From: a virus
Direction: 5' to 3' (one strand)
IMG/VR virus record: IMGVR_UViG_3300030107_005049
Span: 1-27,471 of that record
DNA length: 27,471 bases
The number at the start of each line of letters is the position of its first letter. Positions within the stretch are counted from its first letter, which is position 1. The notes below the pieces were generated by a model, which was given only the letters and a program-made list of their open reading frames with translations, did not search any database and had not been told where the DNA came from. The position numbers were made by a program, and so were the translations under genes. Positions 8,001 to 26,583 of the stretch are shown here, piece after piece.

Positions 8001-9514
8001 ATAGAAGCACCACTAGCTGCAGATTTTAAATATCCTCTTGCACCAGTATTAGCCCCTTCAATCAAAGACCCTTCAATTGCAGTAAGTGATGAACTTAATG
8101 TTAAACTTGTATATGTTTGTATATCCCACAAAAATAATTCATATTTTGTAGATGCATCAGAATATCTCTCAGCTTCCAACTTAAAGTCATATACTCTGGC
8201 TACGCCAATCTCACTACCAGCAGCATTCGCATGAGTACCTCCAGTTCTTTGGTCTCTTAAACTAACAGTTGCATTAGTACCAAGAGTTGTATTTGGTGCC
8301 CCATATACACGATTAAGCATTACTGAAGAAGTTTTATCAAAAACAAATGATTGTTTTTTTAATTCTCTAACTTCTCTTGGTTTTTCTACATCTAAAAAAG
8401 TATTACCAGTTCTTGTTACTTCATATCCTCTTACATAAGCTTTACCAGGCTCAAGCTGGTATATCATAGTATCACTACTTGGAGTATTTCCTTGTTGAGT
8501 TTTTTGATTGTCAAAATAAACACCATTATTTCCTTGTCTATCATTCAAAGACTCTCTAACATTTAATGCAAATGGTTTTACATAATAATTACCACTTTCA
8601 TCATACGTTCTTCTAGCAAATTCATCAGATAATATATTGTAATCGGTCTTTTCGACCATTTTCTCTTTAGCACCTTGATTTAATCTCAATAATTCAACGA
8701 AATTAGCATCAGATATATCATCTAAATCCTTTTTAATTAATGTTGTTGTTATCTGAAATCTATCAGCGCCAGGAGCTGCAAAGTTTGAAAATCCAGCTGC
8801 ATTATCAAACAAAGTGGAATCACTAAATGCGGTTACAATATTTTCATCAAGATATAAACCAATTCTTCCTGAAGGTGAATTACTATATTGATCTATAATA
8901 ATAGTTTGTTTAGTTATATTAAGAAAATATCCACGAATAAAATATACTCCATCCGCAATAGTACATGCAGATCCAATAGATGTTGCATTTAATGGTATAG
9001 CAGTAGCAAATGGATTTGTTGCAATAATACGAGAATTGCCATATTCAATATCAGAATCTGGAACTACAAAATTTTCCCCATCGACAAATTCAACCGTTTT
9101 AAAATCATCACCAGCTTTAGAATATTTTATATAAAGTGTATTATGTCCTCTATCAGATGTTGTTGATAGAATATAATTAACAACTTCCGCCTCTACACCC
9201 GATGTTTCACCTTTAATTGTTTTACCAACTAATTTATCAAGATATTCAGAAATTGGAATACCTAAAAATGTATCCTCTAATTCAACTGCATAATACTTAG
9301 CATCATATCCTATACCGCCTGGAATCACCATCGAACCTTCTTTAAAGAAGTGTTGTCCGAATTTCTCCATTTGGTTTTGGAGAATAGTTTGTAATTGGGT
9401 TAATTCCCTAGCCTGAACGGGGCTACCTGGCTTAAATAGAACTCGTTTAAAGTTCTTATCTTCATTAAAATCATCAAAATACGGAGAAACGTTCAGATTG
9501 GTCTCTTGAGGCAT
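2078..9514 (-). CDS. Giant DUF4815-type virion structural protein (2478 aa), outer baseplate
   Basis: The N-terminus contains FKPGSPVQARELTQLQTILQ (about residues 28-47), the signature of DUF4815-type phage proteins. A second family block at about 1100-1190 includes RYTMSDIARLENRLKNVEFY and FKSGFFVDNF. Further conserved structural motifs follow: IPYMRSRNIEF then FYPFFDG (about 1400-1430), and DPLAQSFEV (about 1665). The C-terminus, YQFTANDLPEFHGFQIKVIL then RTIALA, is also typical. Added modules include an AGSGY repeat (about 1953), an NHGMH motif (about 2035) and an IGDEVIKYTG module (about 2095). It lies 4 nt after gp8, in the position of T4 genes 9-12, which have no recognisable homologues here. 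Probable role: outer baseplate and fibre platform. It is much longer than a single T4 baseplate protein. Structural identity is confident; the exact subunit is not. Confidence 0.85.
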   Translation of the reverse strand: MPQETNLNVSPYFDDFNEDKNFKRVLFKPGSPVQARELTQLQTILQNQMEKFGQHFFKEGSMVIPGGIGYDAKYYAVELEDTFLGIPISEYLDKLVGKTIKGETSGVEAEVVNYILSTTSDRGHNTLYIKYSKAGDDFKTVEFVDGENFVVPDSDIEYGNSRIIATNPFATAIPLNATSIGSACTIADGVYFIRGYFLNITKQTIIIDQYSNSPSGRIGLYLDENIVTAFSDSTLFDNAAGFSNFAAPGADRFQITTTLIKKDLDDISDANFVELLRLNQGAKEKMVEKTDYNILSDEFARRTYDESGNYYVKPFALNVRESLNDRQGNNGVYFDNQKTQQGNTPSSDTMIYQLEPGKAYVRGYEVTRTGNTFLDVEKPREVRELKKQSFVFDKTSSVMLNRVYGAPNTTLGTNATVSLRDQRTGGTHANAAGSEIGVARVYDFKLEAERYSDASTKYELFLWDIQTYTSLTLSSSLTAIEGSLIEGANTGARGYLKSAASGASISLTSTNGTFITNEAIIVNGVKSNQTIATVTEYSFDDVKSVYQSYTLDSTTYKFNADTDLSRFLFPAPRGTEFTINHTNGVVSVGGQRFSSGVKIGDIVRYQKTGESDPTYNRVTAVASTGATITIAALAADVAGVCQKELVSSTGTSTRFVIVRPRLLNPSNTGLISDLPEPFISKVDLSASEILVRKNYTFTVSSNTATITLTEDNEYFEPFDEEKYNVSFSDGSIYSLRSGNLSFNATYKTLTLKFAGISNSTKGVLVATIKKTIIKSQNKTLNRCNTITINKTQGVTVAQNGVTANSVYGNRVEDKEICLYVPDGVRVHAIFESSTAGDPSLPTVTLTNRSADLTDTIQGEVLIGNTSGAAARVVNSATATVDVVYVNDLEFIKDETVTFQSSGIDGLVSSTVDGDSDIVDNFQFDNGQRPELYDFARIIRKDDSSTPSKRLTVVFDNYTLDGEVGDFATVNSYSADNFEFDIPTFSGIPVSDFIDVRPRVSSTPVSTSISPFDYDNRTFAVGGVKPSIIVGDESMSLTYSHYLSRIDKIYLDKDGNFELKKGASAPVEDVVPPADPAGSFIVATISNNPYIRRAGSSKVLLARHKRYTMSDIARLENRLKNVEFYTQLSLLETDTSSLTIVDAKTGDNRFKSGFFVDNFRSHGAHAVGHPNFRASIDKARGELRPTHYTHGLDLLLGSEQVIGIGTNSDPNADLTQVSDLQSNALKRTGDLITLDYTSETYIEQKFATRWENVNPFASITWVGGVELNPSSDVWLDEKRLKTNVVEVEGDYQKTLDNLKIDPNTGFSPADWGEWETVWSSTSSDTQHKGTTNSGFKQTGRSRGTQNNDWGTFTTSRATITDTFEETITVDTGMSRSGIQFKVDARIDEQSLGDKLVSRETIPYMRSRNIEFVATRIQPGTRFYPFFDGQNVEQYITPKLIEISMDNGVFQVGEQVVGTSGDSIKNSSAPRISFRVAQPDHKFGSYNDPRITYAVNPYASTTGISSSYSATSSVLNMDTGSLQQKVLGAYFGRISKDMKLLGLTSGAEATVTDTRLITDEKGALIGSLFVPNPSHISAPEFTTGTKTFRLSSSITDSRSPLDKPSVCQANFRAEGTTDTVQEDIMMIRNAEVSQRTVTDDKTTTSSSSRTYTTESFEERVRFEEDDNDPLAQSFEVKETNGIFLESVDIWFKTKDVKVPVTLQIRTMRTGLPTQGIVSFGEVTLDPEFVNISETGVDESYTRFTFPSPVFLEGQSKDYAIVLLAQSINYHVYIARMSEEDLRDINLEESERRIVSSQPHLGSFFKSQNGATWTPSQYEDLKFRLNRCKFVSGPGILKLYNPELGVGEMERPILRRNPLLLKSNEVNIKCAGNVTGINVGDLLSQTNNTSANGKVTALLGPLATATHQTNSGVGLVNATYTSRPLTSITGNGSGGVATIVISGTPSTVGSITVTTAGSGYKTGDVLGATVGDTGTGLRFTVGAVSNINSLLLHEVQGTFDTTNTLTKAGSAISNSVPSTVNTVSSDKDGLHIKVFHRNHGMHAANNRVTISDAVGINTVTTLSQKYSNSATSAIKVDSVANLGDFEGLAVSTSNPGYIQIGDEVIKYTGTNSSTTPKQLTGITRAIDNSVAATHDAATKVRKYQTAGISLRRINKTHLLSQSSIAPDLDSYHIKIDVSANGNGTTRDGSSSTIPLRIDKTLLDGGELTRATQNIQFEAITPLVEFLTPVDTQLSGRVRTVTGTSANGTEVSFADEGFSDIALNGVNYFDSPRIIASKINEQNNLTALPGSKSFTTELVLTSNDQHVSPMIDTDRFGIITTTNRVDNPITDYKGDSRVNSLVNDPTSAIYITKRVSLENPATSLQTRFAAFNHVSNDIRVLYRILRADVPSNEEPFILFPGFSNLKDTTGDGFGDELRNAANSDGTPDRKVPSSRTIDEFRDYQFTANDLPEFHGFQIKVILTSTNQAIVPRIKDFRTIALA

Positions 9515-9518
9515 TTTC

Positions 9519-11099
9519 TTAGAACTCTAATACGATTTTTACATCTTCTTTCTGGGTAGCACTACGTTGTATTGCGGCCCTGTTATCTATGTATAAGACT
9601 TCACCAGAATATTTTTTAACTTCTGGTGGTGCAACACCTTTAGTAAAGGCTTGACCTAATGAAACACTAGCTCCATTTATAGTCACAGAATTACCAGTAA
9701 ATGCATCATCTATCGATAAAGCATTACCAGATGTTTGTCCAGAAATGGTTAATTGATTTGATGTACCATCAAAATCAACCATCCTAAATCCAGTGGTAGT
9801 TGATCCAATACCAGTAGGTGTATATAATTTTAATACTGCACTAGTAGAATCCCAACTAGCAACATATCCAATAGCCGTAGATCCAACACCTATAGTTTGT
9901 GTAACTGGAGTATCAACAGTATAGATGGTATCAGCTATATTTCCTCCACTAATTGTCTTCAATTTAAGTGAAGTTAATGGAACTGCAGAATCTGAAGTTA
10001 ATAAAGAACCTGCAATATTTGTTGGATTTTTAACAACACCAACTTGAGCAAAGTCATTTCCTACAATAAAATCAGGATTTGTAGTACTATTCTCAAATCT
10101 TGCATACATTAATACTCTAAAAGCACCAAGTTCACGATAAATATCATACCCATGTCCGCCTGGAGGTGGAATAACTACTTCAAATTCTGCAATAGAAGTT
10201 GTTCCTACACCAACAGCAGATAATCCAGTAATTGGCCCACCAGTTTCAGCGCCTGGAGCGCCAGGATAAAATTCAACAACTCCTCTACTATATCCAGTAC
10301 CACCATTAGTAACAGTTATATCTGAAACTTTACCTTGAGAATTAACAGTTACTGAAGCTCTACCACCAGTACCATCTCCAAGTATGGGAATATTGTTAAA
10401 AGTAGTACCAATAGGTTGATATCCACCACCACCATTAATTACAACTGCAGTTTCAATCTTTCCACTTATTGCATTATCTTTTATATCACCACTTTCACCA
10501 GTTCCCCAAGATGTAGGAACAGGCATATAATCAATTGAATCAAATTTTATAATCTCTTTTGGTTTAATAGTATAAAGATACTTCCAAATATAACCATCAC
10601 CACTAGTACCAGCAGCTCTTGGTTCTAAATCAACAAAATCTGGTTCGTCAAGTGACTGTCTACCTTGTGGGTTATCAGGACTTTGGCCATTATTAATACA
10701 AATATAAACTTTAAGATCACTATTTACAACATAATACTGAGCATCATACAAATTAGTAGAAGATGTTTTAGGACTCTGATTCACTCTTGTATAACTATTT
10801 TTATACATTTCATAGACAGTACCAGCAGTCCAACTATTCTTCTTAACCATTCTTTGTATATCACCACTACTTAATTTCTTAAGTCCTAACATAGTATCCC
10901 AAACATCATTATATTCCCTAAATCCATCCATAGGAGCTGGAGTATTTTCATTCCAATCAGTTTTACCGTAACCAGCACCAATGTCTGTAGAATTTGGGAA
11001 TCCAATGAATGTATAATAATACTGCGATGTGTCAGCTACACCAGCGACAAAGTTCGCAGCATTTAATATTCTAAATTGATCTGAAATAATCGCAGGCAT
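9519..11099 (-). CDS. gp8: Baseplate wedge protein gp8, enlarged (526 aa)
   Basis: The product shows the gp8 pattern of T4-like phages. WNENTPAPMDGFREYNDVWD (about residues 49-68) is followed by GLKKLSSGDIQRMVKKNSW and TAGTVYEMY. DAQYYVVNSDLKVYICINNG leads into GDGYIWKYLYTIKP (about 167-180). In T4, gp8 dimers bind the gp10-gp7 part of the wedge, bridging the core to the periphery. T4 gp8 is 334 aa, so this copy is about 190 residues longer. The extra length holds two glycine-rich repeats (GGGGYQP near 223, GGTGYSRG near 263) of a type abundant in the upstream giant protein, followed by a long beta-rich, Thr/Gly-rich segment. The gene follows a 28-nt gap with a late promoter, and no Shine-Dalgarno is visible. 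It is 4 nt from the DUF4815 gene. Confidence 0.88.
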   Translation of the reverse strand: MPAIISDQFRILNAANFVAGVADTSQYYYTFIGFPNSTDIGAGYGKTDWNENTPAPMDGFREYNDVWDTMLGLKKLSSGDIQRMVKKNSWTAGTVYEMYKNSYTRVNQSPKTSSTNLYDAQYYVVNSDLKVYICINNGQSPDNPQGRQSLDEPDFVDLEPRAAGTSGDGYIWKYLYTIKPKEIIKFDSIDYMPVPTSWGTGESGDIKDNAISGKIETAVVINGGGGYQPIGTTFNNIPILGDGTGGRASVTVNSQGKVSDITVTNGGTGYSRGVVEFYPGAPGAETGGPITGLSAVGVGTTSIAEFEVVIPPPGGHGYDIYRELGAFRVLMYARFENSTTNPDFIVGNDFAQVGVVKNPTNIAGSLLTSDSAVPLTSLKLKTISGGNIADTIYTVDTPVTQTIGVGSTAIGYVASWDSTSAVLKLYTPTGIGSTTTGFRMVDFDGTSNQLTISGQTSGNALSIDDAFTGNSVTINGASVSLGQAFTKGVAPPEVKKYSGEVLYIDNRAAIQRSATQKEDVKIVLEF

Positions 11100-11124: not shown

Positions 11125-11132
11125 TATTTATG
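11125..11132 (-). promoter_or_regulatory. T4-type late promoter box (CATAAATA) for gp8
   Basis: The minus strand reads CATAAATA, spanning the TAA stop of the 4347-aa gene (11128-11130). It ends 26 nt before the first base of the gp8 ATG at 11099, nearly the same spacing as the other two boxes. The 28-nt gap that follows is otherwise A-rich, with no Shine-Dalgarno. It would give gp8 its own transcript after the 13-kb gene. Confidence 0.6.
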
Positions 11133-14100
11133 TAGTTTTATCAAAGTCACTATAAGTAACCGCTAATGGATTGATACGTTTTACTTCTGGTGAAGTAGTT
11201 ATACCAATATATCCATTCAAATTATTAATATTAAACACTTTAGGCCCAGTAGCAGACCTATTCATATTAGATAATTTACCCCAACTATAATAACCGAGAG
11301 CAGCTCCTTTTGAAGCACCTGTATAAGTAGTTGCAGTGACAATACCAGATGCATAAGATTGTACATTACATGCAACTTTAACAGTTGCTGCATCAACATT
11401 AGTTACTGTTTCAACCTTATAGATATTATCTATCATAGTTGTTCCTTGACCAACAATATTACCATCTTTATCGATGGATGTTGGGCCAGTTCCAGCAGTA
11501 CCAACTCTAGAATCACGAACTACAAAGTAATCACCAACAGCAATTTGACTTCTTGCAATATTACCAAATGCAGGTTGATTGAGGAATGCATCAGAATCTA
11601 ATGTAAGTTCTATTGCATGTTTGCTGTTGGGCCCAGTTGAATCATAAGCAACTGAAGTAATAACTCCATAATCACCTTCTATAGTAACGGTATTACATTT
11701 TTCACGAGTAACACTCTGTTGACTTAATAATACTGTTGGATTTGTATTAGGTGTATAACCAAATCCACCATCATTTACAGTAATTGCACTAATAGTACCA
11801 CCAGCACCAACAGTTGCAGTTGCAGCTGCACCTACAGTTTCACTCTCACTCCAACAAATACTTGATGTTATACCAACTGCAACTATTTTCTGATCTCCAA
11901 ATGCAAGTCCATTAAATGTTTTATTAACAATAGTTCCTGCATTTTTAATGCGTTTCTGTTGCCAATCAACACCATTTGTAGAATTTAAAACATGACCGTT
12001 TTCACCAACAGCAACCCAAACATTTTCTTGATAATTAATAGCTTTAAAACTCTTATTAGTTAATAAACCAGTAGATCCACCATTAACAATATTCCAAGTT
12101 AAACCATCATCAGTAGAATTAATAATACTTCCTGCAGCACCAACAGCAACCCATTTATTATCTGCATAAGTTATATCATTAATTCTAGTTGTAATTGAAG
12201 TTGTAGTAACACCAGACCAAATCTCCCCATCTGTTGATCTGTATAATGCGCCAGCATTACCTACAGCAATAAATGTTCCATCATTGTATCCAACTCCATA
12301 GAACGGTTGTGTTGCATATTTATTAGCAACAATAAATGATGATGAAAGACCCGCTGTTCCAGGCTCACTATAAAGAATTGTACCAGCAGCACCAACAACA
12401 ACAGTTCTTTCGTAAGGAACATCTGTAGCTATTCCTGTTAATGCATTAGGGAATAGATATGATCCAACAGCTGCAGCATTTAAATTCTGAGATATATTTT
12501 CATGAGTATAAGTTGGTATAAATCCAACCTGTTTTCTTCTATAGATGGTAGTTGGGCCAAATGTTGATCCTCTTGTAGTACTTATTGCAATTGTACCAGC
12601 AGCACCAACAGCAACAACCTCAGATTTAAGTCCAACAACACCATTTAACTGTCCATATGTACCAGTTACTGATGCAGATGACCAACCTATACCTGTTGTA
12701 GATGTATTAATACCAGAAGTACTTCCAACTGCAACAAATACTCCTTCAGGAATATAATCAATATCATTATAGTTAATATCAGTATCAGAATTTACTTTAG
12801 TCCAACCTCTACCAATTTCCCTAGTAAGAGGAACATTTACAAAGAGGGAAGTACCTAACCCAGATTGAAGTCTATTAAATTTAGAAATAGAGACTGTAGG
12901 AATATTTTCATATCCAGAACCACTACTTACAATAGAAATAGAACTAACAGTACCAGCAGATCCAACTGTAGCTAAACCAGTTGCAACATTGATTTCCTGT
13001 GTATTTACAATTTGTATTTGTCCAGGAATTTTATCAGTATCAGTTCTATTATCATAAGCACTGAATAATGGGAATGCATTATCAACATATGTAACAACAG
13101 AAGTTATTCCAACACTCCTAATCAATCTAGCACTAGGATAGAAATTACCAACTTGAAGTGGTCTATCTTTAGCAATAGGTAATCCATCAACTATTAAGTC
13201 ATGTTCTTGTTTCTTCCAAGCAGCAACTCTTAGAAGGGTTGGATTAGTACTAATTCCTCCTCCTCCATATGGAGGTGTTTCTATCTTACTAATATCCTTA
13301 ATTTCAGAAACAACACGATCCGTTTGTGTAGGAACATCATTATCTCTAAGTAATTGAATCTTATCACCAACTTTAACAGTTTCAACTGGGTTTAAAGCTT
13401 CAATATCCTGATTACCACCTCTATAGAATAATATTTGTAATTTACTACCAGCTTTAGGTGCCTCAACAAAAATTACTGTAGTACCACCTTCAAGTCTGTA
13501 ATTTTCTTTTGGTTGTTGTAATACATCATTCAAGAATATAAGTAGATTATTTTCTGGAAGAATAGAAGTATCTAATGATGCAATTGTAACAACATCTTTA
13601 GTTAATACAGTTTTTGTTAATAAGAATGTTTTCTTAACACTATTGAATTCTGATGAAAAATCGTCTAGAGGAACTAATTGACCAAAACTATATCCAGAGA
13701 ATTGATCTGTAATAGTTGTTTTAACGGTTAATGTAAATGGTGACGTTGAAACACCTGCACGGAATGGTATGCCTTGTACTGTTAATACTTCACCATTTTT
13801 ATATCCAAAACCTCTTTGAGTAATATTAATATCTTTAACAACACCACTAGTACCAACCGTTGCATCAACCTTTAAACCACTACCAGATCCACCAGTTACC
13901 GATAATCCAGAATAACCAGTTGCAATACCAACTTTAATGGTTGGAAGCTCTGTTGAGTGAGTACGTGGATATGAATGTTCACTTACATTACCATCTTGAG
14001 TACATGTAAATTTCAATGCATTATCATTAATTCTTACATATGATGTGGCTTTTCTAATCTTATTAGCACTCTTACCTGTTACAAATGAATGAGAACCTGT

Positions 14101-17100
14101 ATAAGTAGAACCTCCAACCCAACAAGTAAATGTATCATTATCAACCCTAGTAATCTTTATCCATTTTCCAAAAATAGGATCAGTCTTTCTAGGATAATAA
14201 TGTTCGGATGAATTACCATCTTTTGCACATGTAAATGGTAACGCACCTTCAAGAATATTAATTTTATCACCAGTACCCATTCCATGAGCAGTAGACTTAA
14301 CAGTTAAAATACCTGTTGTTGGATTATATGCAGTACCACTTATTGGTGTGATAGTTGATGAATTAGTTGCATGAGTCCATCCATCAGCAGCTTTAGTTAT
14401 TATTAAATCTCCAGATGTAGGATCATATGTTGCACCATTGGGAGTCCATTGAGCAGTAGAACCAGCACCAGTTACAACAAATCCTGTACCAGTACGTACT
14501 GAATTAGATAAAGCACTTACAAAAGTATGTTGATACCTTGCTTTAGGAAGTGCAGTTCCAACATTAATTGTTATATTAGCTCCAGAAGTAGAAATTACAG
14601 GAAGATATGTATTATGTGCAGGATCTGCAGATGAATATCCAGTACCACCACTTATAGTAGTAATACCAGTAATCATTCCAGCACTAGATCCAGTACCAAC
14701 TGTAGCTTGAAGTTTTGCAGCCGATCCAATACCTAATGGGTTAAAGATTTCTACATTAACTGGGCCTGATTGATATCCAGAACCTGCAGCCAACATAGTA
14801 ACACTTTGAACAGAACCTGCAGCATTAATAACTGCAGTTGCAGCTGCAGCTACTCTTGGTTGATAATTTTGTCCTGTTGCAATAGTTACTTCATCAACTT
14901 TACCACCTCTAGGTAAATCATATAAAGTATCTCCTGTGAATACAACAGATCCACCAATACCAATATTAGGTGCAGTTGATCTAGCAACTATATCATAATC
15001 AACACCTGGTCTTTGGAATACACCATTAATCATAAGAACACCATAATTAATGACTTCATCATCTCCACCACTACCACTAGTAGTAGTAACAATACCAGTT
15101 ACATCAGCACCATTTTGAGTTAATGTAAATGTTCTTCCAGTTGCAACATTTCCAGTAAATTTATGTGAAACATCATCAAAAACAAAGTTTCTAGTCTGAT
15201 CTTTTCTATTAAATACACGACCAGAGAAACTGGATTGTGTACTAACACCTACATCACCAGTTGGGCCCCAAGGAGGTGTTGCAAAGTAAATAACATCCTT
15301 AACAATATTATAATTACCACCTTTCATAGTACATGCAGCACCTACAAGGTGTGAAGTTGCTTTTGTACCTAAAATACCACGATCAACTGTAATTACATTT
15401 GTTGCTCCAACTCCAACAGTTTTAATTCTAATTAATTCATTATCAATATTAACAATATCATTCAATTTAATTGATGTAATTCCAACAACTTTAATTGTAT
15501 TAACTCCAACAGCAATAGCATCACTTAATGCAACAGAAACACTTCTATTATACAATGGAGATTGTATTGAATTATCAATTTGAATTAATGTTTTAGTAGG
15601 TGCATTTATAGAATCAAATGAATGTTCTGTTCCAGATCCAAGACTACGTAAAGTAAATGCTTCATCAGTAGTTGTTGTTGATAATCCAGCAACTTTGAAT
15701 CTATTTTGGTCTAATCTAGAAACAACATACATCTCAGAAGGCATAAAGTTTGTAGAGACTCCACCTAATACATCATTAGTAGCTACAATACCAATTCTAT
15801 TATTTCCATAAGTACCACTACCAGGATCATACTTAATTCTTTCACCTGTTTGGAATCCGTGGTTATTAAGTCTAATAATAGATGATCCTACAGATACAAC
15901 AGTAGAATCATTTGGATCAAATGCATTACTGAATAATGGAACTGCACCACTTTGAGAAGTAAGTCTAAATGAACTTAAACCAACAATCTGTCCACCAACA
16001 ATAGGAGTATTAACAGTAACTTCAAATGTATCAACAGTTTTATTAGAAATTGTTAAATTAGTACCAAATGCAGGATCACTTGAACGAGGATATGGATGTT
16101 CAGTTTGATGACTATCTTTGTCACAAGTAAAGATTAATGAATTATTAGCTAAACGAATACTAGCTCCATTATTCAATCCATGATTAGTAAGTGTTTTTAT
16201 TTTTAATACACCAGTTGCAGGATTATATGATGTGCCAGAAATTGCAGTTAATTCACCAGTTCCACCAGATTGTATTGATATACCATTAGTAGTTGCCCGT
16301 TTGAATATATGAATACCCATAAAGGTCTGACTCTTGGCATTAAATTGATTACTAATATCATCAATTAACTCAACTTTAGCAGTTGCAATACTTAATAGAT
16401 CTCTAATTTTTCTATTTTGGAAACTAATAAACTTAGATAATCCTGTACGTATTGTAGTTTCTGTTGCAAAATCATAATCATTTTTAACAAAGAAAGAATG
16501 TACATTATCAACATTAACTAATAAATCAGTAGCATTTTGAGGAGATCTAGCTGTAAGAGTAGTACTTCTTGCATAACCAGCTGTAGGTTGAGATTTTATA
16601 ACCAAATCTGAGAAATTTTTAAATCCAGTAGGATGAATAATACTATCTACAGCATCACTAAAGTCTTTTTCTTGAACTTCACTTTGAATAGAATATGAGA
16701 AATTTTGATAATAATCACTATCTTGTAATTTCTGGAAATCGTTACTTAATTTACCAGTATCTTTTTGCCAACCCTTTATTCTTTCTGCTTGATGTGAAAG
16801 ACTAAAGAATCTCTCATAGTAAGAAGATTTAACAACGTCACCAGAAGCATTTGATATTTTACCAACTATAACATCACCAATATAAGGCGTTCGAGTCAAA
16901 TTACGCAATCTAAATGAATTATTAGCTGGATCCCATCCTTCATTCTTAACCATCTGACCTATAGCAGATCCATTACCAAATGTCACAGGTTCTCCATTAA
17001 TGAAATCTCTCTGATCAAATCTTACATTAAATGTTGGCAGATCTTCTTTTTTAATGATTCTACCAGCACTGTTTGTGGGATCAAAGAAACCACCAGTACT

Positions 17101-20100
17101 TCCAATTCCAGTAAGACTATATGTAATTCTAGAGTCTGCAATATTTCTTGAATCAATTGTAAAGGTTCTAAAATCATACATGTTAGAATTATATCCTTGA
17201 ACCTCACCCTCATTATATGTACGTGGATCAGTACTAGGTACTGGTTCCAAAAATACCGTACCATCATTAGCATCAGGATGGCCTTGAATATTAACATTCT
17301 CTACAAATATTTCATCTCCAACTTCAAATGGGAAATTAGTACCCAGTCTATGAGCTTCAGGTCTCCAACCACCTAAAGGTGATTTAAGAGTAATAAATTG
17401 TGTAACACCATTAGAAGTTGCAGTAACAACACCAACACCATTACTATTGTTAATAGGAATAATTCTTGGTGGATTAGGAACTAAATCAAATCCAGTAAGA
17501 CTATCATACAATATACGTACAGATCCTATACCAGTTCCTTCAAGACTAACTTCTGTTTTTGCATTTGGTCTAGATGGGAAGAATAAATCTGGTGCAGTAC
17601 TATAATTTCTACCTGATGTTTCTACACCAATATGTCCTATAACATAATTATTTTTTACAGCTACATGAACAGGAGTATCAGCTCTTGGACTTAATGACTT
17701 ATCTGTTGGATAATCATATCCAATTTTTACCATTTCTTTAAATCCTGGCCTTCCAAGAGTATCATCAAACATACTGAGATTTGCATCTCTACCAGTAGTA
17801 GTTCTTACAGTACTAACTCCTGGATTTTTAAAGTAATCTACACCAGGAAAATCTATCTTAACTTCATTAATTCCACCTGTAGCATGAGTAGATGAAGTCA
17901 AATATCTAAATGTAGTAATACCAGATTTAACATAGGATGATCTTTCTGGTTTATATGGTACTTGATATGAAAATGATGTTATTCCAGTTGTTGTAATACC
18001 AAAATTACCAGCGTATATACTAGGATCAATTGTTATTTGAGATGCATTAATAACTTGATTATCAATTTCACTATCCCGTTTAGTAACATTAATAGTGTTT
18101 AATGATGTTGGAACTAATTTGTAATATAATGGTAATGGTAAATTATCTGTAAGTTTAACATTAACTATAGCACCTGTTGTTCCAGTCACACCAGTTCTTA
18201 CAATTTCTGTTGATATTCCAACACCATTAAATTTGTTAGTAAAGTTCTGATCTTTATAGAATTCAAGTTTAAAATCAGCAAGAGAAGTATCAGATACCGC
18301 AAATCCAATAGTTTCTCCTTTCATAACTTGAATTGGAGGATTTATTCTTGCAACCCTATGAACACCAGATCCTGCATTGGTTAAATTGATAAATGCAATT
18401 GGAATACTTAAGGAATCCTTACGATTATTAAATAATCTAAATGTATTTTTACTGATTCTCTTAACATAATATTCACCCCTATCAGTTAATGGTGTTATTC
18501 TATTAGCTACATTTGTAGTATGAGAATATAGTATCTTATCACCATCTTTAAATCCATGATCAACTAATGTAATTGTAGAATCTGTAGTAGATACAGCACT
18601 ACTATTAAAATATGCAGGATTAACTATAGTTTTTCTTGCAATACTATCATATTCAATAGTTTTACTAACTGTAGTATTAGGTGCAAGATCTACAGTTATT
18701 TTATCCTTAGTTCTTAAATTATGTGGAGATGAATTGTAAATTAAAACATCATAACGATCAAGAGTACCCTTATGTTGTTCATTTGTTGTTTCAAGAGTAT
18801 GATCTGTTAATAAATTATTTTCTACAGTAACAATATAAAGAGAAGTACCAGTACTACCAATACCAGTTCTTGTAGTAGTAATTCCTAATAAATCATTACT
18901 CTTTTTAACTGCATATACATACTGACCATCAGTTAATGCAAAAGAATTACCAAGACCAACAGAGTTAGATACTTTTAATGGTTCACCCTGTAAACTCTTA
19001 CCATATTTTAATCTCTGTCCTGTTAGGAATCCATGATTTGGAAGAGAAATAACGTTATCAGCATTACTACCTGGTTGACCATTATGAGGTCTATTTTGTG
19101 GATCATGATCATATAATACACTATTATCTTTAGCAACTACTCTTGCAACTGACACATTTCCAAATGGGCCAGTTTCAGTTTTTATTACTGTTCCAATACC
19201 AATACTATTTTGTGGATTAAATGTAATTAACTTATCAAGTTTAATAGGTAAATCTGTATGAATACCAATATTAAAAGTAAATCGTCTTTGATCTACAGAA
19301 AGTCTTGTTCCTGCAGGGAATGTAGTGTTTATACCTGGTTGACGCCAAACTCTATATCTATTCAAAGTTTTATCAACTTCTAAGACTCTTAATCTTTCAG
19401 AACTCCAACCATCCTTTATACCATCAATTCTTAACCAATCACCAACTACTATATCATCATCAGTATTTGCACCACCAACAACATCAGTAAGTGTTATCCA
19501 AGCATTATCACCAGTTGCACTCGTATGATTATTAGCTGTTGTTCTGGATGTTAATGCAAAACCTAATGTAGATGTAACTGAAGATATAGAAATTGTTGTT
19601 GGGCCTTCAAGAAATCTTAATTCTCCAGTTCCAATACCAGAAAGATTAACTAAATCGCCATTCTGCAATCCATGAGAAGTAGATCCAACACCAACACCCA
19701 ATCCATTTTTATAATCAAATGCAATATGATCAATAGTAGTTTGATTGTAAGTAACTTCTGTTATTCCTTTACCAACTAAAGTCTTTACTTTTGCACTTGC
19801 ACCACTACCACCAGTGTTATCATTATTAAATACAACTCTATCACCTACTTTATATTCTATACCTGGTGATAATACATTTACAGAACTTATACCACTAGTA
19901 GCTATAGTTTTAACAAATAACTCAGTATCTTCTATACTATCAGAAACAAAATAATCATAATCAGATGCAAGGAATCCTAATTTATATGGAAGAGTATTTC
20001 TTAATATATCACCACTATTAAGAATTGACATATTCTGTAATGACAATGGTTTGCCATTCATCTCAATTTTCTTAAAACGGAAACCGTTTAAGATGTAAGG

Positions 20101-23100
20101 GAATACTGGTTCTCTAGAACCAATAAATGGAGATGATGTTCCATTAGCATCCGAAATAGTACAGAAATATGCATATACACCATCAGGAAATTCTGGTGTT
20201 TTACAAAATCTTCCATTATATTCATCTAAATCACCATCTGCAGTATAGTCAAAATCTTCAACAAAGAAACCAAGTGGATATTCTGTAGAAACTGGTGGTC
20301 TATCTGATTTAACATTCGCAGTATAACTTGACGTTATTCTACGAATAATTCCTCCAGTAGGAGTAGCATATCCATATGGCCCATATATTGGACAACCATC
20401 ATAAGCCCAACCAACAATAGGAGAATGAACTAATTGTGTATTTTCCTTTAACTGACCATTAATATCTACAAAAAGATTATCATCTAACTTTAATCTTAAT
20501 GTTCTGGGTAGATATGTAGATACAAATTTTAAACCATATTCAGTATTTTGGCTTGGTACAATAATACCATCATCATCTTGATTAATAGACTTACTATATC
20601 TGTTAACTGTAGTAGTTTTCCATTGTCTTAGATCCGCTCTGAAAACAGCGCCAGAACCCTGTTGTTTGACCCTCACAGTGGTCGCAGGTTGATCCTTATA
20701 GTCTTTACCACCATCGATGATATTTACACTTAATAACGTACCATCAGTATCAAGATTAGAAAGAAGTTTTGCATATCTACCTTCACCTTCAACAATTAAT
20801 TCTGGAGGAGTAACATATCCTTTACCTGCAATTTTTACAAATGCACCAGTAATTTTACCATCTGTTTGATTTACTGTAACTAATCCATCTTGCCCATTTG
20901 ATATTGTAACCAATGGTCTTCTATGTGCATTTAATGTTGCATCAGTACCATAACCAACTCCACTACTTGTTAAACGTACATCAGTGATAGCTCCATGACA
21001 TAATGGTCTAATAATAGGTACAGAAGTAGCTGTAAGAGCAACACCAGATAATGTTTCTAATGAAACTGCAATATCTGGATACTTAAAGGTATGTGTACCA
21101 ACACCAACAGTTTCAAGATCTACATATAATCCTTTATGGTAATTTTGAGTTGTTGTAGTAGTTCCAATACCAGCACTACAAACACGGAATTTATCTTCAT
21201 CTAAAACAATAACTTGATAATTTTGAGTTGTATGTAAACCACCTATAGCAGTATCAGTATGTCTATATTCAACAACATCACCAGAGTTAAACCCATGCAT
21301 CTTGGAGAAAATATAATTATTTGCAGTACTAATACCAGATATAAGATTATTTCTATTGTAATATGAAGATGATGGATGTGCAGTAGAATTTACAAGTACC
21401 TTTCTATTAGAGTAACCAGATCCTGGATTTTCAACAAGAATCTTATCTAAAACATTTCTAGCTGTAGTTGATGTAAATTTATGACTACCTAAAGATTTAT
21501 TTCCTATAGTAACACTATTAATACCAGCTACTGCATCATCAAAATTAGTCGCAAGACTAATTTGTTTTTCATTAATTTTATTAACATAATAAACAGCTTT
21601 ATCTACAAGACCACCAACAGCTGCATTTGCTACAGATTTTTCATATACAACCGATTCTCCATCAAAAAATAAATGATCATCTATAAAATTAATTGTTCCT
21701 GGTGTACCAGTTGCAGTAATGGCTACATCTGTTTTTGCATCAAATAATCTAGAATTTCTTGTTGCTCTTAATCTTGCAGATGCAGTAGCGCCCTGACCGT
21801 TGCCACCCGTTATGGCAACGTTAGGAACTTGTTTTAGGTCATATCCACCAGAAACGACTTCAATACCTTTAAATGACCCCTCTACCACCGCATATGCAGT
21901 AGCTCCAGAACCTACGTTATCTGTAATATGAATATTAGGTGGAGTTATTACATCATATCCAGAACCACCACTCTCAACATCAATATGTTCAATTGGGCCG
22001 TAATGAAGACTGTCTCCAGATTGATTAGAAATCAATTCTACTCCATTAATGAGCATTCCAATAGGTTCATTCTTAAGTTCTACTTCAGATTCTTTAGGTT
22101 CTGGAGTTATTGGGAATTTTCTTAAGAAATTTTGATATTTTACATTCTTTCCAGTTAGATCTGCAGGAATTAACTCATGTGTAGTAGTATTACCCACACC
22201 AAGAATAGAAATATATTTACCTGCAGCTACATCAGCAACACTTCGAGATAATCTTATTCTATTATCATCAACTTTAGTAACTGCATATTTTGATCCAGTA
22301 TCTAATCCAACTACAGTACGGCCTGGAGAAACAAGAGGTGCATATCTAACCAATTCTCCTTGTAAGAAATTATGATTATTAATTGTAATAATATCAGTAA
22401 CACCATCAACATCAGAATTAAATGCATTATCTGCAGCTATAAACTCTTTCTTTCTAGTATCAGAGAATATTTCATAACTTGGTAATGATCCACATGTTAC
22501 ATAAACTTCTTTATTATCCTTAGAAGTATAAGTATTTTGAATATCAGAAACAAAATCAGATATACCTAAACTACCATTATAACTTTTTGCATAATTTAGA
22601 GCTCTTTGAACTTTATAAAGTTTTGTAGGATCTAAAGTTCCAGAAGTAATATCAATCTCAAATTCCAACGCTGTAAGAGATCTTTTAACAGTACCTTTAA
22701 CATTATCAGGATTTTGATCATCATTAGTTACATCAAGTAACGTTACAGTATCATCTTCATTCAATAAATGTGGAGATGATGTAGTTACAACTCTACTATT
22801 AGTATTAACTTTAGAAGTATTAGTTAAAATATCTCTTGCAACATCACTTTTTGTCTTGGTATTATGAATCCAACTATTTAAATGATCATTTGCCTTATCA
22901 GATACTCTACCTAATTGTCTTGGTAATATATCATCACCTTCAAATAAAAATCCAACATCATCAATATTAGCACCATTAGCTACATTTGTTAATCTGAAAT
23001 ATACGGGTTTCGTAATATCTCCATTTTCATATGCATATACAGTCGCAGAAGATCTTACAAAATCAGAATCACTATAATTTGATGATATGCCAGTTACTCC

Positions 23101-24171
23101 AAAAAATTGATTTGAAGACTTACTTGTATAAGTTGCAATACCAACAGTTAATCCTGCACCAACATAAACGGATCCAGACTCAGGAAATCCCAAAGTTGAA
23201 TCAACTGTAATTACAGTTGAACCAATACCAACTGCATTTACCAAAGAAGATGATCCAGTTGGATAAAATTCACCAACAGTAGATCCTTTACTCAAACTTA
23301 TGATGTAATAATGTCTACCATCTCTTGGAAAATACTGTGTGTTAAAAATAGATCCACTTGTTGCAGTATTATCTGTTTGAAATAATGTTTGGCCAACTAC
23401 ATTATCAGCATTTCCACTAAGACGTTCAGCTATTAAATCAAAAGTTTTTACATAATCTGCATCAGATGGTGCAAATAAGTACTCAATTGGTTTAATTACT
23501 TCAGCTGTAGAGTTAAAAAGTACTCCAAATAATATTTTTATCGCTTCATCAGTACCTTTTGTTGCATAAAAATCCTTAGCTTGACGTAGAAAATTAGCTT
23601 TATCTACTTTATCATGTAATTTTCTATCTTCAAAACCAGGCAAGAATAATTTTTTAGTTTTTTGCCAAAATTCTTGTAAAAATAAGTTACTTAAATTAAT
23701 AACTTTTGAATTATTTTCATGTTTACTAGAACTAGTATTAGAAAATACTAATGTTTCTGGATTATTTGGATCTTTTAAATTATCTACACCACAAAAACCA
23801 CGTACACAACCTGTAAATGACGTTGCTGTTTTACCAGTATATGTTATTATTTCATTATCAATCTTCAAAAGTCCATAATCTGCAGGCCAACCTTCTGTTG
23901 AACTTACATTTATTGTTGCATCATATGAATTAACATGACTAGTACATGTAGAAAATCCTATTAAATTACTAGTTTCACTATAAGTTTCAGATTTTTGATA
24001 GTCATTAAAATTAGTAATAATATCAATGGAACTACCTTGATTCTCTTGACTAATATAATATTGTTTTAAAAAATCTACAAATAAGGGATTATCATCAACC
24101 ACAAACGAAGGCAGTTGACTTGATACAAGTTTATTAATTTGTACTTTTTTAGCGGCTGTGTCTATACCCAT
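11128..24171 (-). CDS. Giant multidomain baseplate-wedge-position virion protein (4347 aa) with YHYH-like domain and beta-propeller
   Basis: One uninterrupted 13-kb frame lies between gp6 and gp8, where T4 has gene 7 (1032 aa). N-terminal residues about 1-240 match a conserved marine T4-like structural block: SSQLPSFVVDDNPLFVDFLK and FLRQAKDFYATKGTDEAIKI. A second family block lies at about 2460-2530 (GKLSNDFQKLQDSDYYQNFS, then IIHPTGFKNFSDL). Between and after them are modular segments: a YHYH-like domain (about 1250-1367, with DGCPIYGPYG, LDEYNGR and PDGVYAYF), about 11 HGF-x-x-G-D repeats, about 15 G-x-G-Y repeats, three FTC...EH-x-YPR repeats, two INGVFQRPG/LNDVLQQP-type segments (about 3044, 3544), and seven AVG-x-x-G-x-x-x-S blades (about 3810-4105). 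There is no signal peptide or obvious membrane helix. It starts 8 nt after gp6, with no Shine-Dalgarno. A wedge or outer-baseplate role is inferred from position. Sequence identity to T4 gp7 is not evident by eye. Confidence 0.85.
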   Translation of the reverse strand: MGIDTAAKKVQINKLVSSQLPSFVVDDNPLFVDFLKQYYISQENQGSSIDIITNFNDYQKSETYSETSNLIGFSTCTSHVNSYDATINVSSTEGWPADYGLLKIDNEIITYTGKTATSFTGCVRGFCGVDNLKDPNNPETLVFSNTSSSKHENNSKVINLSNLFLQEFWQKTKKLFLPGFEDRKLHDKVDKANFLRQAKDFYATKGTDEAIKILFGVLFNSTAEVIKPIEYLFAPSDADYVKTFDLIAERLSGNADNVVGQTLFQTDNTATSGSIFNTQYFPRDGRHYYIISLSKGSTVGEFYPTGSSSLVNAVGIGSTVITVDSTLGFPESGSVYVGAGLTVGIATYTSKSSNQFFGVTGISSNYSDSDFVRSSATVYAYENGDITKPVYFRLTNVANGANIDDVGFLFEGDDILPRQLGRVSDKANDHLNSWIHNTKTKSDVARDILTNTSKVNTNSRVVTTSSPHLLNEDDTVTLLDVTNDDQNPDNVKGTVKRSLTALEFEIDITSGTLDPTKLYKVQRALNYAKSYNGSLGISDFVSDIQNTYTSKDNKEVYVTCGSLPSYEIFSDTRKKEFIAADNAFNSDVDGVTDIITINNHNFLQGELVRYAPLVSPGRTVVGLDTGSKYAVTKVDDNRIRLSRSVADVAAGKYISILGVGNTTTHELIPADLTGKNVKYQNFLRKFPITPEPKESEVELKNEPIGMLINGVELISNQSGDSLHYGPIEHIDVESGGSGYDVITPPNIHITDNVGSGATAYAVVEGSFKGIEVVSGGYDLKQVPNVAITGGNGQGATASARLRATRNSRLFDAKTDVAITATGTPGTINFIDDHLFFDGESVVYEKSVANAAVGGLVDKAVYYVNKINEKQISLATNFDDAVAGINSVTIGNKSLGSHKFTSTTARNVLDKILVENPGSGYSNRKVLVNSTAHPSSSYYNRNNLISGISTANNYIFSKMHGFNSGDVVEYRHTDTAIGGLHTTQNYQVIVLDEDKFRVCSAGIGTTTTTQNYHKGLYVDLETVGVGTHTFKYPDIAVSLETLSGVALTATSVPIIRPLCHGAITDVRLTSSGVGYGTDATLNAHRRPLVTISNGQDGLVTVNQTDGKITGAFVKIAGKGYVTPPELIVEGEGRYAKLLSNLDTDGTLLSVNIIDGGKDYKDQPATTVRVKQQGSGAVFRADLRQWKTTTVNRYSKSINQDDDGIIVPSQNTEYGLKFVSTYLPRTLRLKLDDNLFVDINGQLKENTQLVHSPIVGWAYDGCPIYGPYGYATPTGGIIRRITSSYTANVKSDRPPVSTEYPLGFFVEDFDYTADGDLDEYNGRFCKTPEFPDGVYAYFCTISDANGTSSPFIGSREPVFPYILNGFRFKKIEMNGKPLSLQNMSILNSGDILRNTLPYKLGFLASDYDYFVSDSIEDTELFVKTIATSGISSVNVLSPGIEYKVGDRVVFNNDNTGGSGASAKVKTLVGKGITEVTYNQTTIDHIAFDYKNGLGVGVGSTSHGLQNGDLVNLSGIGTGELRFLEGPTTISISSVTSTLGFALTSRTTANNHTSATGDNAWITLTDVVGGANTDDDIVVGDWLRIDGIKDGWSSERLRVLEVDKTLNRYRVWRQPGINTTFPAGTRLSVDQRRFTFNIGIHTDLPIKLDKLITFNPQNSIGIGTVIKTETGPFGNVSVARVVAKDNSVLYDHDPQNRPHNGQPGSNADNVISLPNHGFLTGQRLKYGKSLQGEPLKVSNSVGLGNSFALTDGQYVYAVKKSNDLLGITTTRTGIGSTGTSLYIVTVENNLLTDHTLETTNEQHKGTLDRYDVLIYNSSPHNLRTKDKITVDLAPNTTVSKTIEYDSIARKTIVNPAYFNSSAVSTTDSTITLVDHGFKDGDKILYSHTTNVANRITPLTDRGEYYVKRISKNTFRLFNNRKDSLSIPIAFINLTNAGSGVHRVARINPPIQVMKGETIGFAVSDTSLADFKLEFYKDQNFTNKFNGVGISTEIVRTGVTGTTGAIVNVKLTDNLPLPLYYKLVPTSLNTINVTKRDSEIDNQVINASQITIDPSIYAGNFGITTTGITSFSYQVPYKPERSSYVKSGITTFRYLTSSTHATGGINEVKIDFPGVDYFKNPGVSTVRTTTGRDANLSMFDDTLGRPGFKEMVKIGYDYPTDKSLSPRADTPVHVAVKNNYVIGHIGVETSGRNYSTAPDLFFPSRPNAKTEVSLEGTGIGSVRILYDSLTGFDLVPNPPRIIPINNSNGVGVVTATSNGVTQFITLKSPLGGWRPEAHRLGTNFPFEVGDEIFVENVNIQGHPDANDGTVFLEPVPSTDPRTYNEGEVQGYNSNMYDFRTFTIDSRNIADSRITYSLTGIGSTGGFFDPTNSAGRIIKKEDLPTFNVRFDQRDFINGEPVTFGNGSAIGQMVKNEGWDPANNSFRLRNLTRTPYIGDVIVGKISNASGDVVKSSYYERFFSLSHQAERIKGWQKDTGKLSNDFQKLQDSDYYQNFSYSIQSEVQEKDFSDAVDSIIHPTGFKNFSDLVIKSQPTAGYARSTTLTARSPQNATDLLVNVDNVHSFFVKNDYDFATETTIRTGLSKFISFQNRKIRDLLSIATAKVELIDDISNQFNAKSQTFMGIHIFKRATTNGISIQSGGTGELTAISGTSYNPATGVLKIKTLTNHGLNNGASIRLANNSLIFTCDKDSHQTEHPYPRSSDPAFGTNLTISNKTVDTFEVTVNTPIVGGQIVGLSSFRLTSQSGAVPLFSNAFDPNDSTVVSVGSSIIRLNNHGFQTGERIKYDPGSGTYGNNRIGIVATNDVLGGVSTNFMPSEMYVVSRLDQNRFKVAGLSTTTTDEAFTLRSLGSGTEHSFDSINAPTKTLIQIDNSIQSPLYNRSVSVALSDAIAVGVNTIKVVGITSIKLNDIVNIDNELIRIKTVGVGATNVITVDRGILGTKATSHLVGAACTMKGGNYNIVKDVIYFATPPWGPTGDVGVSTQSSFSGRVFNRKDQTRNFVFDDVSHKFTGNVATGRTFTLTQNGADVTGIVTTTSGSGGDDEVINYGVLMINGVFQRPGVDYDIVARSTAPNIGIGGSVVFTGDTLYDLPRGGKVDEVTIATGQNYQPRVAAAATAVINAAGSVQSVTMLAAGSGYQSGPVNVEIFNPLGIGSAAKLQATVGTGSSAGMITGITTISGGTGYSSADPAHNTYLPVISTSGANITINVGTALPKARYQHTFVSALSNSVRTGTGFVVTGAGSTAQWTPNGATYDPTSGDLIITKAADGWTHATNSSTITPISGTAYNPTTGILTVKSTAHGMGTGDKINILEGALPFTCAKDGNSSEHYYPRKTDPIFGKWIKITRVDNDTFTCWVGGSTYTGSHSFVTGKSANKIRKATSYVRINDNALKFTCTQDGNVSEHSYPRTHSTELPTIKVGIATGYSGLSVTGGSGSGLKVDATVGTSGVVKDINITQRGFGYKNGEVLTVQGIPFRAGVSTSPFTLTVKTTITDQFSGYSFGQLVPLDDFSSEFNSVKKTFLLTKTVLTKDVVTIASLDTSILPENNLLIFLNDVLQQPKENYRLEGGTTVIFVEAPKAGSKLQILFYRGGNQDIEALNPVETVKVGDKIQLLRDNDVPTQTDRVVSEIKDISKIETPPYGGGGISTNPTLLRVAAWKKQEHDLIVDGLPIAKDRPLQVGNFYPSARLIRSVGITSVVTYVDNAFPLFSAYDNRTDTDKIPGQIQIVNTQEINVATGLATVGSAGTVSSISIVSSGSGYENIPTVSISKFNRLQSGLGTSLFVNVPLTREIGRGWTKVNSDTDINYNDIDYIPEGVFVAVGSTSGINTSTTGIGWSSASVTGTYGQLNGVVGLKSEVVAVGAAGTIAISTTRGSTFGPTTIYRRKQVGFIPTYTHENISQNLNAAAVGSYLFPNALTGIATDVPYERTVVVGAAGTILYSEPGTAGLSSSFIVANKYATQPFYGVGYNDGTFIAVGNAGALYRSTDGEIWSGVTTTSITTRINDITYADNKWVAVGAAGSIINSTDDGLTWNIVNGGSTGLLTNKSFKAINYQENVWVAVGENGHVLNSTNGVDWQQKRIKNAGTIVNKTFNGLAFGDQKIVAVGITSSICWSESETVGAAATATVGAGGTISAITVNDGGFGYTPNTNPTVLLSQQSVTREKCNTVTIEGDYGVITSVAYDSTGPNSKHAIELTLDSDAFLNQPAFGNIARSQIAVGDYFVVRDSRVGTAGTGPTSIDKDGNIVGQGTTMIDNIYKVETVTNVDAATVKVACNVQSYASGIVTATTYTGASKGAALGYYSWGKLSNMNRSATGPKVFNINNLNGYIGITTSPEVKRINPLAVTYSDFDKTT

Positions 24172-24179
24172 TATTAGGA

Positions 24180-26138
24180 TTAATAGCTAACGTCTGTTGA
24201 TGTAGATGATATATCTTTAGTAGAAGTGTATCTACTAGAAGTAGGAGCAGAATCCGTCTTTCTTATGTAGTCACCATCGGAGAAACTAGATGTGGAAATG
24301 TAATTTGCACCTGATGAGTCTGCACCAGTGGAAATAGTATCTTCAACACAACCAATATGACTATCTGGTATAGAAAGTTGAACATATAGATCCTTTAATC
24401 CAATAATATCATTAGATTCTGGAATTGCCTCTATTTCAACGATATTATCAGCCTTAACTGTTGATAAGATCCGTATTGTATCTATAAGAATTTCACCAAT
24501 ATCATATTTAACAGTACCTGCATTATTAACTACTTTTTCTACTTCACCTGTGTTTGATAATCTGAATATAAACAATTGACCAGTTTTATCATCAATATAA
24601 GAATCACCAAAGTAACAAGTACCTAAAACACCGTCAAGAGTGAATCCAGTTGACTTAATATTATAGCCTTCTCTCCTATTATGGAATCTATTACCAAAAC
24701 ACAACTCATATTGTGCAAAATTATCAGTATCTACGTCTAAATTACGTCTAATAATGATTTTTGTGATATTTGACGTAACTGCAGGATTAGTTTCATCAAT
24801 TATCTTAATTATTTTACTATATTTAAATCTACCACCAAATTTATTCAAATCTGCAGATTTTGAGTAAGTTTCGAGAGAATTTCTGATAATAGACTTTAAA
24901 TCATTAACATTTCCAACAACATTTGAGTTATAATAGATTGTAGAATCTAATTCAATGTACAAATACTTCAAATCTACGAATTCTTGACGAATTCCTGCAA
25001 CTGAGTAGCTTTTTAACTTGGATATAAGTTGTCTTTTGTCAAAATCGGAGATAAATCGTCCATTTTTGGGTTTTATTGACAAAAATACCTTCCCAAATTG
25101 AGGAGGACTTGAATCTTCACCTCCATATGCAATTACACTCTCTGCATTTGGGAAAATTGTCGGAATTATTGCTTCATAATCGTTAGTTGTGACTGCACGG
25201 TGTTGTGCCGAGTAAATTCTAGTTGCTAAATTCCTAACTGTGTCTAAACTTTCAATATTTGCACCATTTCTAGCTGGTTCGTTGGTAATTATGTCAGAAA
25301 TACCCGTTGTAATGAGTCCACCATCATTATCTAATAGTTTTCCAGCGAAAGAAAATGCAGAAACACCATTTCCACCAGGCCCATCAGACACAATATAGGT
25401 TGCAGTCACACAATTATTGTTACTTAACTTCTTACCAAGTACTCCATCACCAAAAAGTATCTCATATTTCTCATCTTGGACTTCTTGTAGTAAATATGTC
25501 TCAGAAAATGTTGTAATTCCCACAATATTATCAATTTGTGAGAAAAGTGTCTTTGAAGTAGAAGATATTGTGTCTTTTACATTGACTTTTAGAGTAGAAG
25601 TGTCAACATATGCATTAGGAATAATGAATCTTTGGTTAGGTTGACCATTATCTACAATAAATTGCTTCGTTAAGAAGGTTCCTTGCTTAATATCAATGGT
25701 AAATTGTGCAAATCCATCATTAACAGGTGATATAATGTCCTCTGGTACACAAAAAGTGTAGTTAGTATTCTCAAAATCACCCAATGCAAACAGTCCAGCC
25801 TTAAGTGTTACACTTGATCTGGTAGTTCCAGACCCTAAATCAACAGTAAAAGTGACATTTGCAGTTGCAGCTCGTCTAGAAGAGGGTACATAACCAACAT
25901 TTCTTGCTAATGCAACCACATTTTCTCTTAAAGTTGCACTATCAATGAACGCCTCATTGGCGACCATGTTAGTATTATATGCTGTAGTATAGGTATTATA
26001 AGCTAAAGTGTCTATTAATATGGATAAATTTGATCCTTCAAAGTCAAAATCAGTGAAATCGGAGTTGGCACGCAGATATTCACGCAAAGAAACCTTAATT
26101 TCTTCAAAATCTAGGTTTGTATATTGTGTAAATGCCAT
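24180..26138 (-). CDS. gp6: Baseplate wedge protein gp6 (Baseplate J-like)
   Basis: At 652 aa this is close to T4 gp6 (660 aa). The N-terminus is diagnostic: YTNLDFEEIKVSLREYL, FDFEGSNLSILIDTLAYNT and NMVANEAFIDSATLRENVV (about residues 6-90), then GYVPSSR. The middle has FGDGVLGKKL (about 229) and DGPGGNGVSAF. The baseplate-J core shows AQHRAVTTNDYEAIIPTIFP (about 310) and YGGEDSSPPQFGKV (about 337). gp6 forms the inner ring of the baseplate, and with the gp7-position protein it makes the wedge core around the hub. The last 50 residues are Ser/Thr/Asp-rich and may be flexible. Its ATG overlaps the gp25 stop (TAATG), so the two are probably translationally coupled. Confidence 0.96.
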   Translation of the reverse strand: MAFTQYTNLDFEEIKVSLREYLRANSDFTDFDFEGSNLSILIDTLAYNTYTTAYNTNMVANEAFIDSATLRENVVALARNVGYVPSSRRAATANVTFTVDLGSGTTRSSVTLKAGLFALGDFENTNYTFCVPEDIISPVNDGFAQFTIDIKQGTFLTKQFIVDNGQPNQRFIIPNAYVDTSTLKVNVKDTISSTSKTLFSQIDNIVGITTFSETYLLQEVQDEKYEILFGDGVLGKKLSNNNCVTATYIVSDGPGGNGVSAFSFAGKLLDNDGGLITTGISDIITNEPARNGANIESLDTVRNLATRIYSAQHRAVTTNDYEAIIPTIFPNAESVIAYGGEDSSPPQFGKVFLSIKPKNGRFISDFDKRQLISKLKSYSVAGIRQEFVDLKYLYIELDSTIYYNSNVVGNVNDLKSIIRNSLETYSKSADLNKFGGRFKYSKIIKIIDETNPAVTSNITKIIIRRNLDVDTDNFAQYELCFGNRFHNRREGYNIKSTGFTLDGVLGTCYFGDSYIDDKTGQLFIFRLSNTGEVEKVVNNAGTVKYDIGEILIDTIRILSTVKADNIVEIEAIPESNDIIGLKDLYVQLSIPDSHIGCVEDTISTGADSSGANYISTSSFSDGDYIRKTDSAPTSSRYTSTKDISSTSTDVSY

Positions 26139-26548
26139 TATTCTCTAGTTGATTGAAGGATAAATGTAATTTCTTGTGGTTGTGCCTCTTGGCCAATAAT
26201 ATTGTAATTTACACTAACCTCTAAATTGTTAGTATCAGGTGGATGAACACAACTAACATTAGTTAACGCAACTCTAGGTTCAAAATTATTGATCGTAGTT
26301 TCAATTTGAGTCTTTATTGTAGTCAATAATCCACTATCTGCCTGTTCAAATAGACTTTCTTTGACACGAGAACCTATCAGAGGGTTAAAAAACCTCTCTT
26401 CATTGATAGTTTCGACTAAATTTCGGACAGATCTCTTAATTGCATTCTCATTTGTAAGAGAAATGATGTCATTAGTGACAGGATGTTTCTTAAAAGACAG
26501 TGAAATGTCTTTAAATGCACGTGATTGTCTCTGTTGTACAACAGGCAT
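26138..26548 (-). CDS. gp25: Baseplate wedge protein gp25 (GPW/gp25 lysozyme-like fold family)
   Basis: This 136-aa protein compares with T4 gp25 at 132 aa. Family motifs are AFKDISLSFKKHPVTNDI (about residues 11-28), NENAIKRSVRNLVETINEER (about 33-52), then FFNPLIGSRVKESLFEQ (about 53-69). The FNP-x-x-GS...LFE signature is the conserved EPR-family core. In T4, gp25 stabilises the wedge and contacts the first sheath ring through gp6. It is the first gene after a perfect TATAAATA late promoter, with no visible Shine-Dalgarno, and overlaps gp6 by one base. Identification is secure. Confidence 0.96.
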   Translation of the reverse strand: MPVVQQRQSRAFKDISLSFKKHPVTNDIISLTNENAIKRSVRNLVETINEERFFNPLIGSRVKESLFEQADSGLLTTIKTQIETTINNFEPRVALTNVSCVHPPDTNNLEVSVNYNIIGQEAQPQEITFILQSTRE

Positions 26549-26575: not shown

Positions 26576-26583
26576 TATTTATA
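26576..26583 (-). promoter_or_regulatory. T4 late promoter box (TATAAATA) upstream of gp25
   Basis: The minus strand reads TATAAATA, an exact match to the T4 late -10 element. It contains the TAA stop (26579-26581) of the SET-domain gene and ends 28 nt before the first base of the gp25 ATG at 26548. The gap between the two genes is 30 nt. It should drive gp25, gp6 and the giant gene as one late transcript of about 15.4 kb if no stop signal intervenes. Confidence 0.75.

Follow-up and report, generated by a model that had tools for sequence, protein, structure and literature searches.

The 27,471-bp IMG/VR virus record analysed here (the window) carries, in the position of T4 baseplate gene 7, a single gene for a protein of 4347 residues, which sequence comparison identifies as a true gp7 enlarged by thousands of inserted residues. 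We place at about 88% the probability of the whole reading, that the gp7 core lies in the baseplate wedge and that inserted and appended modules sit at an enlarged periphery. The giant form itself is already known; the analysis also brought out the split-core architecture, relatives in which the chain is naturally divided into two genes, and results that counter the published absence of gp7. Few genes in well-studied marine phages are as large as that for giant gp7, yet a published survey counts gp7 as absent. The gene lies between genes 6 and 8, as a T4-type gp7 does, and the order in the direction of transcription is gp25, gp6, the giant gene, gp8 and a 2478-residue DUF4815 protein:

26138..26548, minus strand: gp25, baseplate wedge, 136 aa (PF04965, E=6.8e-14)
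24180..26138, minus strand: gp6, baseplate wedge, 652 aa, with which the gp7 core is predicted to associate (PF21379, E=5.7e-17)
11128..24171, minus strand: giant gp7 of the baseplate wedge initiator family, 4347 aa (phrog_2885, 'baseplate wedge subunit')
9519..11099, minus strand: gp8, baseplate wedge, 526 aa (PF09215, E=4e-13)
2078..9514, minus strand: DUF4815 / 'VrlC-type' structural protein, 2478 aa (PF16075, E=4.9e-64; phrog_358)

The combination of giant size, gene position and a profile match to phrog_2885 (2949 bits, with residues 5-2616 as the best stretch) is that of the giant gp7 of cyanophages. The calculated mass of the protein is 467 kDa.

The divided core and its added modules

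Profiles of residues 1-340 (N-core, 89 relatives) and residues 2380-2700 (C-core) were compared with T4 gp7 using HHalign, the E-values of which refer to single comparisons. Residues 193-302 (FYATKGT...ILF), a core helical segment, aligned with T4 gp7 728-822 (E=1.4e-9, probability 96), and residues 2415-2518, ending in HPTGF where T4 has HPVGF, aligned with T4 gp7 805-889 (E=1e-4, probability 57), so that both core halves match T4 gp7 in order. Neither a reversed T4 alignment nor T4 gp6, gp8, gp9, gp10, gp12 and wac gave anything significant in HHalign (all E at least 0.08). The preliminary description had assigned the protein to gp7 and singled out residues 1-240 and 2460-2530 for profile comparison; the assignment proved right, and each of these stretches corresponds to one half of the core.

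The gap between the giant protein and T4 gp7 is bridged by intermediates, namely the compact gp7 proteins of the Methylophilales phage Melnitz (896 aa; HHalign E=2.2e-50 for the N-core and 1.7e-32 for the C-core), the Pelagibacter phage HTVC008M (1016 aa; 1e-18 and 1.6e-13) and the Xanthomonas phage X1 (498 aa; 6.3e-12 and 1.5e-5). These carry both core halves in order without the large front domain, have an insert of just a few hundred residues and have almost no C-terminal extension. The plain N-core HMM also matched the T4-type gp7 set (iE about 1e-6 to 1e-8), and X1 gp7 used as a query in viral contigs gave one match. A single-sequence search of solved structures reached only E=0.072, to a T4-type gp7, and profiles were therefore needed. 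The model that AlphaFold gave for residues 1-1200 (mean pLDDT 70), searched with Foldseek against 350,542 PDB chains, had T4 gp7 as its top match (E=1.9e-3, probability 0.38; chain 5iv5_BJ of 1004 residues, assigned to gp7 by its length and by the listing for 5iv5). This structural match is weak and the C-core match to T4 alone, with its probability of 57%, is modest, and both weigh against the overall reading. The parts of the protein are as follows:

23266..24171, minus strand: gp7 core, N-terminal half, residues 1-302 (193-302 aligned to T4 gp7)
16930..23265, minus strand: inserted stretch that parts the core halves, residues 303-2414, about 2,100 in all (profile comparison, model)
20155..20433, minus strand: YHYH domain, residues 1247-1339 (PF14240, E=1.9e-25)
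16618..16929, minus strand: gp7 core, C-terminal half, residues 2415-2518 (HPTGF end; HHalign)
11131..15975, minus strand: C-terminal extension, residues 2733-4347 (a separate gene in a sister clade)
11797..12831, minus strand: BNR/Ycf48-like beta-propeller region, about residues 3781-4125 (sequence and model)

T4 gp7 shares the core helix, the HPxGF segment and the gene position with the window protein, but its core halves are adjacent, it has no giant inserts, and its approximately 700 residues before the core are missing from the giant. About 150 residues separate the KGT helix from the HPxGF segment in T4, whereas the two are found at 201 and 2513 in the window protein, the core segments being parted by about 2,100 residues. 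This insertion (303-2414) carries HGF..G and G.GY motifs and is predicted to be largely beta-structure, the model covering residues 1-1200 only. Its YHYH domain scores 90.4 bits against a curated cut-off of 25 and corresponds to profile positions 90-182 of 193, the first part being unmatched. Beyond the core follow about 1,600-1,800 further residues, including the beta-propeller, for which Ycf48 proteins are the nearest relatives of solved structure (E=1.3e-3 by sequence; E=4.8e-9 by Foldseek, from a model that is reliable in part). For residues 3640-4347 the AlphaFold model is poor overall (mean pLDDT 37.5), and residues of about 3952-4099 alone are usable, mostly at pLDDT 64-87. The propeller profile did not match T4 gp7 (E=0.23), so nothing indicates that this propeller derives from a T4 gp7 domain moved to the C-terminus. 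Among the named relatives the propeller is common to S-CAM9 only. Four further families matching 11128-24171 (phrog_4406, 701, 19630 and 18802) are filed under 'head and packaging', yet are probably mis-categorised.

The giant family and its separable C-terminal extension

Oversized gp7 is the norm among viruses that infect marine cyanobacteria, with 3.5-7.3 thousand residues being usual in Kyanoviridae. The N-terminal third of the window protein is matched by 469 phage records, many of which bear the names 'gp7' or 'baseplate wedge initiator', and giant forms include those of S-RSM4 (3515 aa), S-CAM9 (3884), DSL-LC03 (4107), S-SM2 (4156), S-SCSM2R (5172), P-SSM2 (5195) and P-SSM4 (7312). The window gp7 is mid-sized in this family, larger versions of which are already public. 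The preliminary estimate of about four times the length of T4 gp7 stands (4347 versus 1032 aa), while its suggestion of a place among the largest structural proteins of a T4-like phage gives way to an unexceptional rank, as Kyanoviridae gp7 reaches 7312 aa.

The 'baseplate wedge initiator' of the Synechococcus phage S-CAM9 (Kanaloavirus; AOV60219.1, 3884 aa) lies in the same gp25-gp6-gp7-gp8-giant structural protein order as in the window, is about 53% identical over the first third and 45% over the last third, and has the C-terminal propeller, but is 463 residues shorter. In the Prochlorococcus phages P-SSM2 and P-SSM4, gp7 likewise has both core halves, giant inserts and the slot after gp6, but is larger than the window gp7 and lacks a match to the propeller; P-SSM4 in addition has about 480 extra residues within the N-core and extra genes ahead of gp8. 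The baseplate wedge initiator S-SZBM1_208 (6619 aa) also has both core halves, but is 50% larger with other outer modules. This protein has been detected in virions by mass spectrometry with 71 peptides and 13.5% coverage (PMC9146016), as has ORF122 of S-CREM2 (1937 aa) with 91 unique peptides and 27.2% coverage (PMC10665884). Homology was re-tested for both and the two core halves are present in each, which supports the occurrence of giant gp7 in virions by way of homologues from viruses other than this one.

The C-terminal extension is a gene of its own in some relatives. In 19 tree rows, all from uncultured viruses, gp7 ends at 2722-2779 residues and is followed, across a short or overlapping start-stop junction, by a second gene and then by gp8; the second gene is homologous to the window residues from 2733 on and comprises 966-1237 residues where gp8 is reached. 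These loci, which form a clade with the junction near window residue 2733, are L032-L034, L041, L043, L044, L047, L048, L070, L141, L148, L152, L153, L161, L165, L168, L188, L210 and L212. In S-SSM7 (L005), a 340-residue gene at 11615-12637 lies between two gp7 parts, both annotated as gp7. The fused state is found in 58 of the 79 giant rows, and in a quick tree built from 81 rows the split condition requires at least three changes and is nested among fused rows; the tree is midpoint-drawn with long outgroup branches, so that any direction, fusion or fission, is provisional. As the split rows lie among fused ones with at least three changes, the pattern suggests repeated late fission rather than an original gene pair, and the two-gene versions found in nature point to a place where the extension could be cleanly separated from gp7.

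One alternative is that the 4347-residue chain represents a fusion of gp7 proper (about residues 1-2,730) with a further baseplate protein of distinct role (about 2,733-4,347), and that the two may be cleaved apart or act independently after assembly. It draws on the separate genes in the 19 uncultured loci and the division in S-SSM7, but most relatives are fused, the split forms are nested among them and nothing points to cleavage, and we regard it as unlikely; since it refines the main explanation, confidence in the two overlaps. We put forward with somewhat less doubt, although still tentatively and at less than even odds, the broader idea that marine T4-like phages enlarge the baseplate periphery by one expanded site in the gp7 core and a separable C-terminal module, which was split off several times, and that the chain may combine a wedge core with a detachable host-contact device.

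Proposed position in the baseplate

In T4-type phages, each wedge contains a single gp7, which binds gp10 at an early step and initiates wedge assembly. In the favoured reading, the window gene encodes the gp7 of a T4-like virus (Kyanoviridae, cyanophage-type), and its core, formed by residues of about 1-302 and about 2415-2518, would link two gp6 chains in a wedge heterotrimer and initiate wedge assembly as in T4. The about 2,100 inserted and about 1,600 appended residues, mostly beta-modules such as the YHYH domain and the Ycf48-like propeller, would project from the wedge and constitute an enlarged baseplate periphery, most likely carrying or anchoring receptor-contact elements. Heterotrimers of the kind (gp6)2-gp7 and (TssF)2-TssG have been described (PMC6300606), and T4 gp7 has a copy number of six (PMC3004832). 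By analogy with T4 and T6SS structures, we infer that the core binds gp6 and that the added modules are exposed, and we further suppose six copies per virion, as in T4, and a host-contact role; six copies would amount to about 2.8 MDa per baseplate.

The added beta-modules most likely decorate the rim of the baseplate and probably serve in contact with the host, although the YHYH and propeller domains do not in themselves prove receptor binding and processing might divide the chain into two. A search for a solved structure of a giant gp7 found none, and the gp7 identity together with the split core tells structural biologists where the chain belongs. A baseplate unlike that of T4, across the whole group, is plausible.

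The reported absence of gp7 and the integrity of the frame

It has been stated that T4 gp7 is absent in cyanomyophages and pelagimyophages and apparently substituted by VrlC (PMC7029224), which would imply that the giant protein is not gp7 and that a VrlC-type protein has taken the place of a gp7 lost in marine T4-like phages. The failure of the single-sequence search to go beyond E=0.072 against T4-type gp7 fits such a loss. However, profile comparison recovers both gp7 core halves in order, and the VrlC-type gene at 2078-9514, annotated as VrlC at the same place in S-SM2, is separate from gp7 and located downstream of gp8; Pfam profiles found DUF4815 in this neighbour and not in the window gp7. 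In HTVC008M, the gp7 slot is taken by a 'putative structural protein' of 1016 aa that carries both halves as well (iE 3.1e-28 and 9.1e-26). On these grounds the substitution is rejected as very improbable, and by profile evidence, which counters the published statement, gp7 keeps its usual slot in cyanomyophages and pelagimyophages, HTVC008M included. The HTVC008M gene in question (L014, 13436-16486; AGE60389.1) is the gp7 reported as absent.

The preliminary description of an uninterrupted frame of 4347 codons from gp6 to gp8 is borne out to the exact coordinates, with an ATG start on the minus strand, the plus strand of 11128-24171 being stop-rich, and chance does not explain such an open frame at about 33% GC. 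Overlapping independent IMG/VR contigs stay open end to end: L015, aligned to residues 1-3297, is open for 3412 codons up to its contig end, L124 covers residues 1713-4347 at 92.6% amino acid identity, and L132 has 4028 open codons at 66% identity. Moreover, the first 1200 residues are open in all 48 relatives checked. A tandem repeat scan of the gene gave only two short 2-copy repeats. Compared with L015, dN is far below dS, the ratio being 0.10-0.40 for every block of 400 codons, with a looser final 93 aligned codons (0.77). An assembly artefact, in which the length would stem from genes joined over errors or lost stops in a metagenomic virus contig lacking reads, is therefore rejected and of negligible probability, as the continuous frame recurs in independent contigs and cultured phages, open relatives are found and purifying selection acts along the whole frame.

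The gene at 2078-9514 is a second giant gene of the window, and one of similar size occupies the same place in cyanophage relatives. A SET-domain protein of 98 residues (26579-26875, minus strand; PF00856, E=1.8e-9) is encoded just upstream of gp25 in the structural cluster, and a tail-fibre-like protein (3-1238, minus strand; phrog_15769, phrog_8745) is cut by the contig end.
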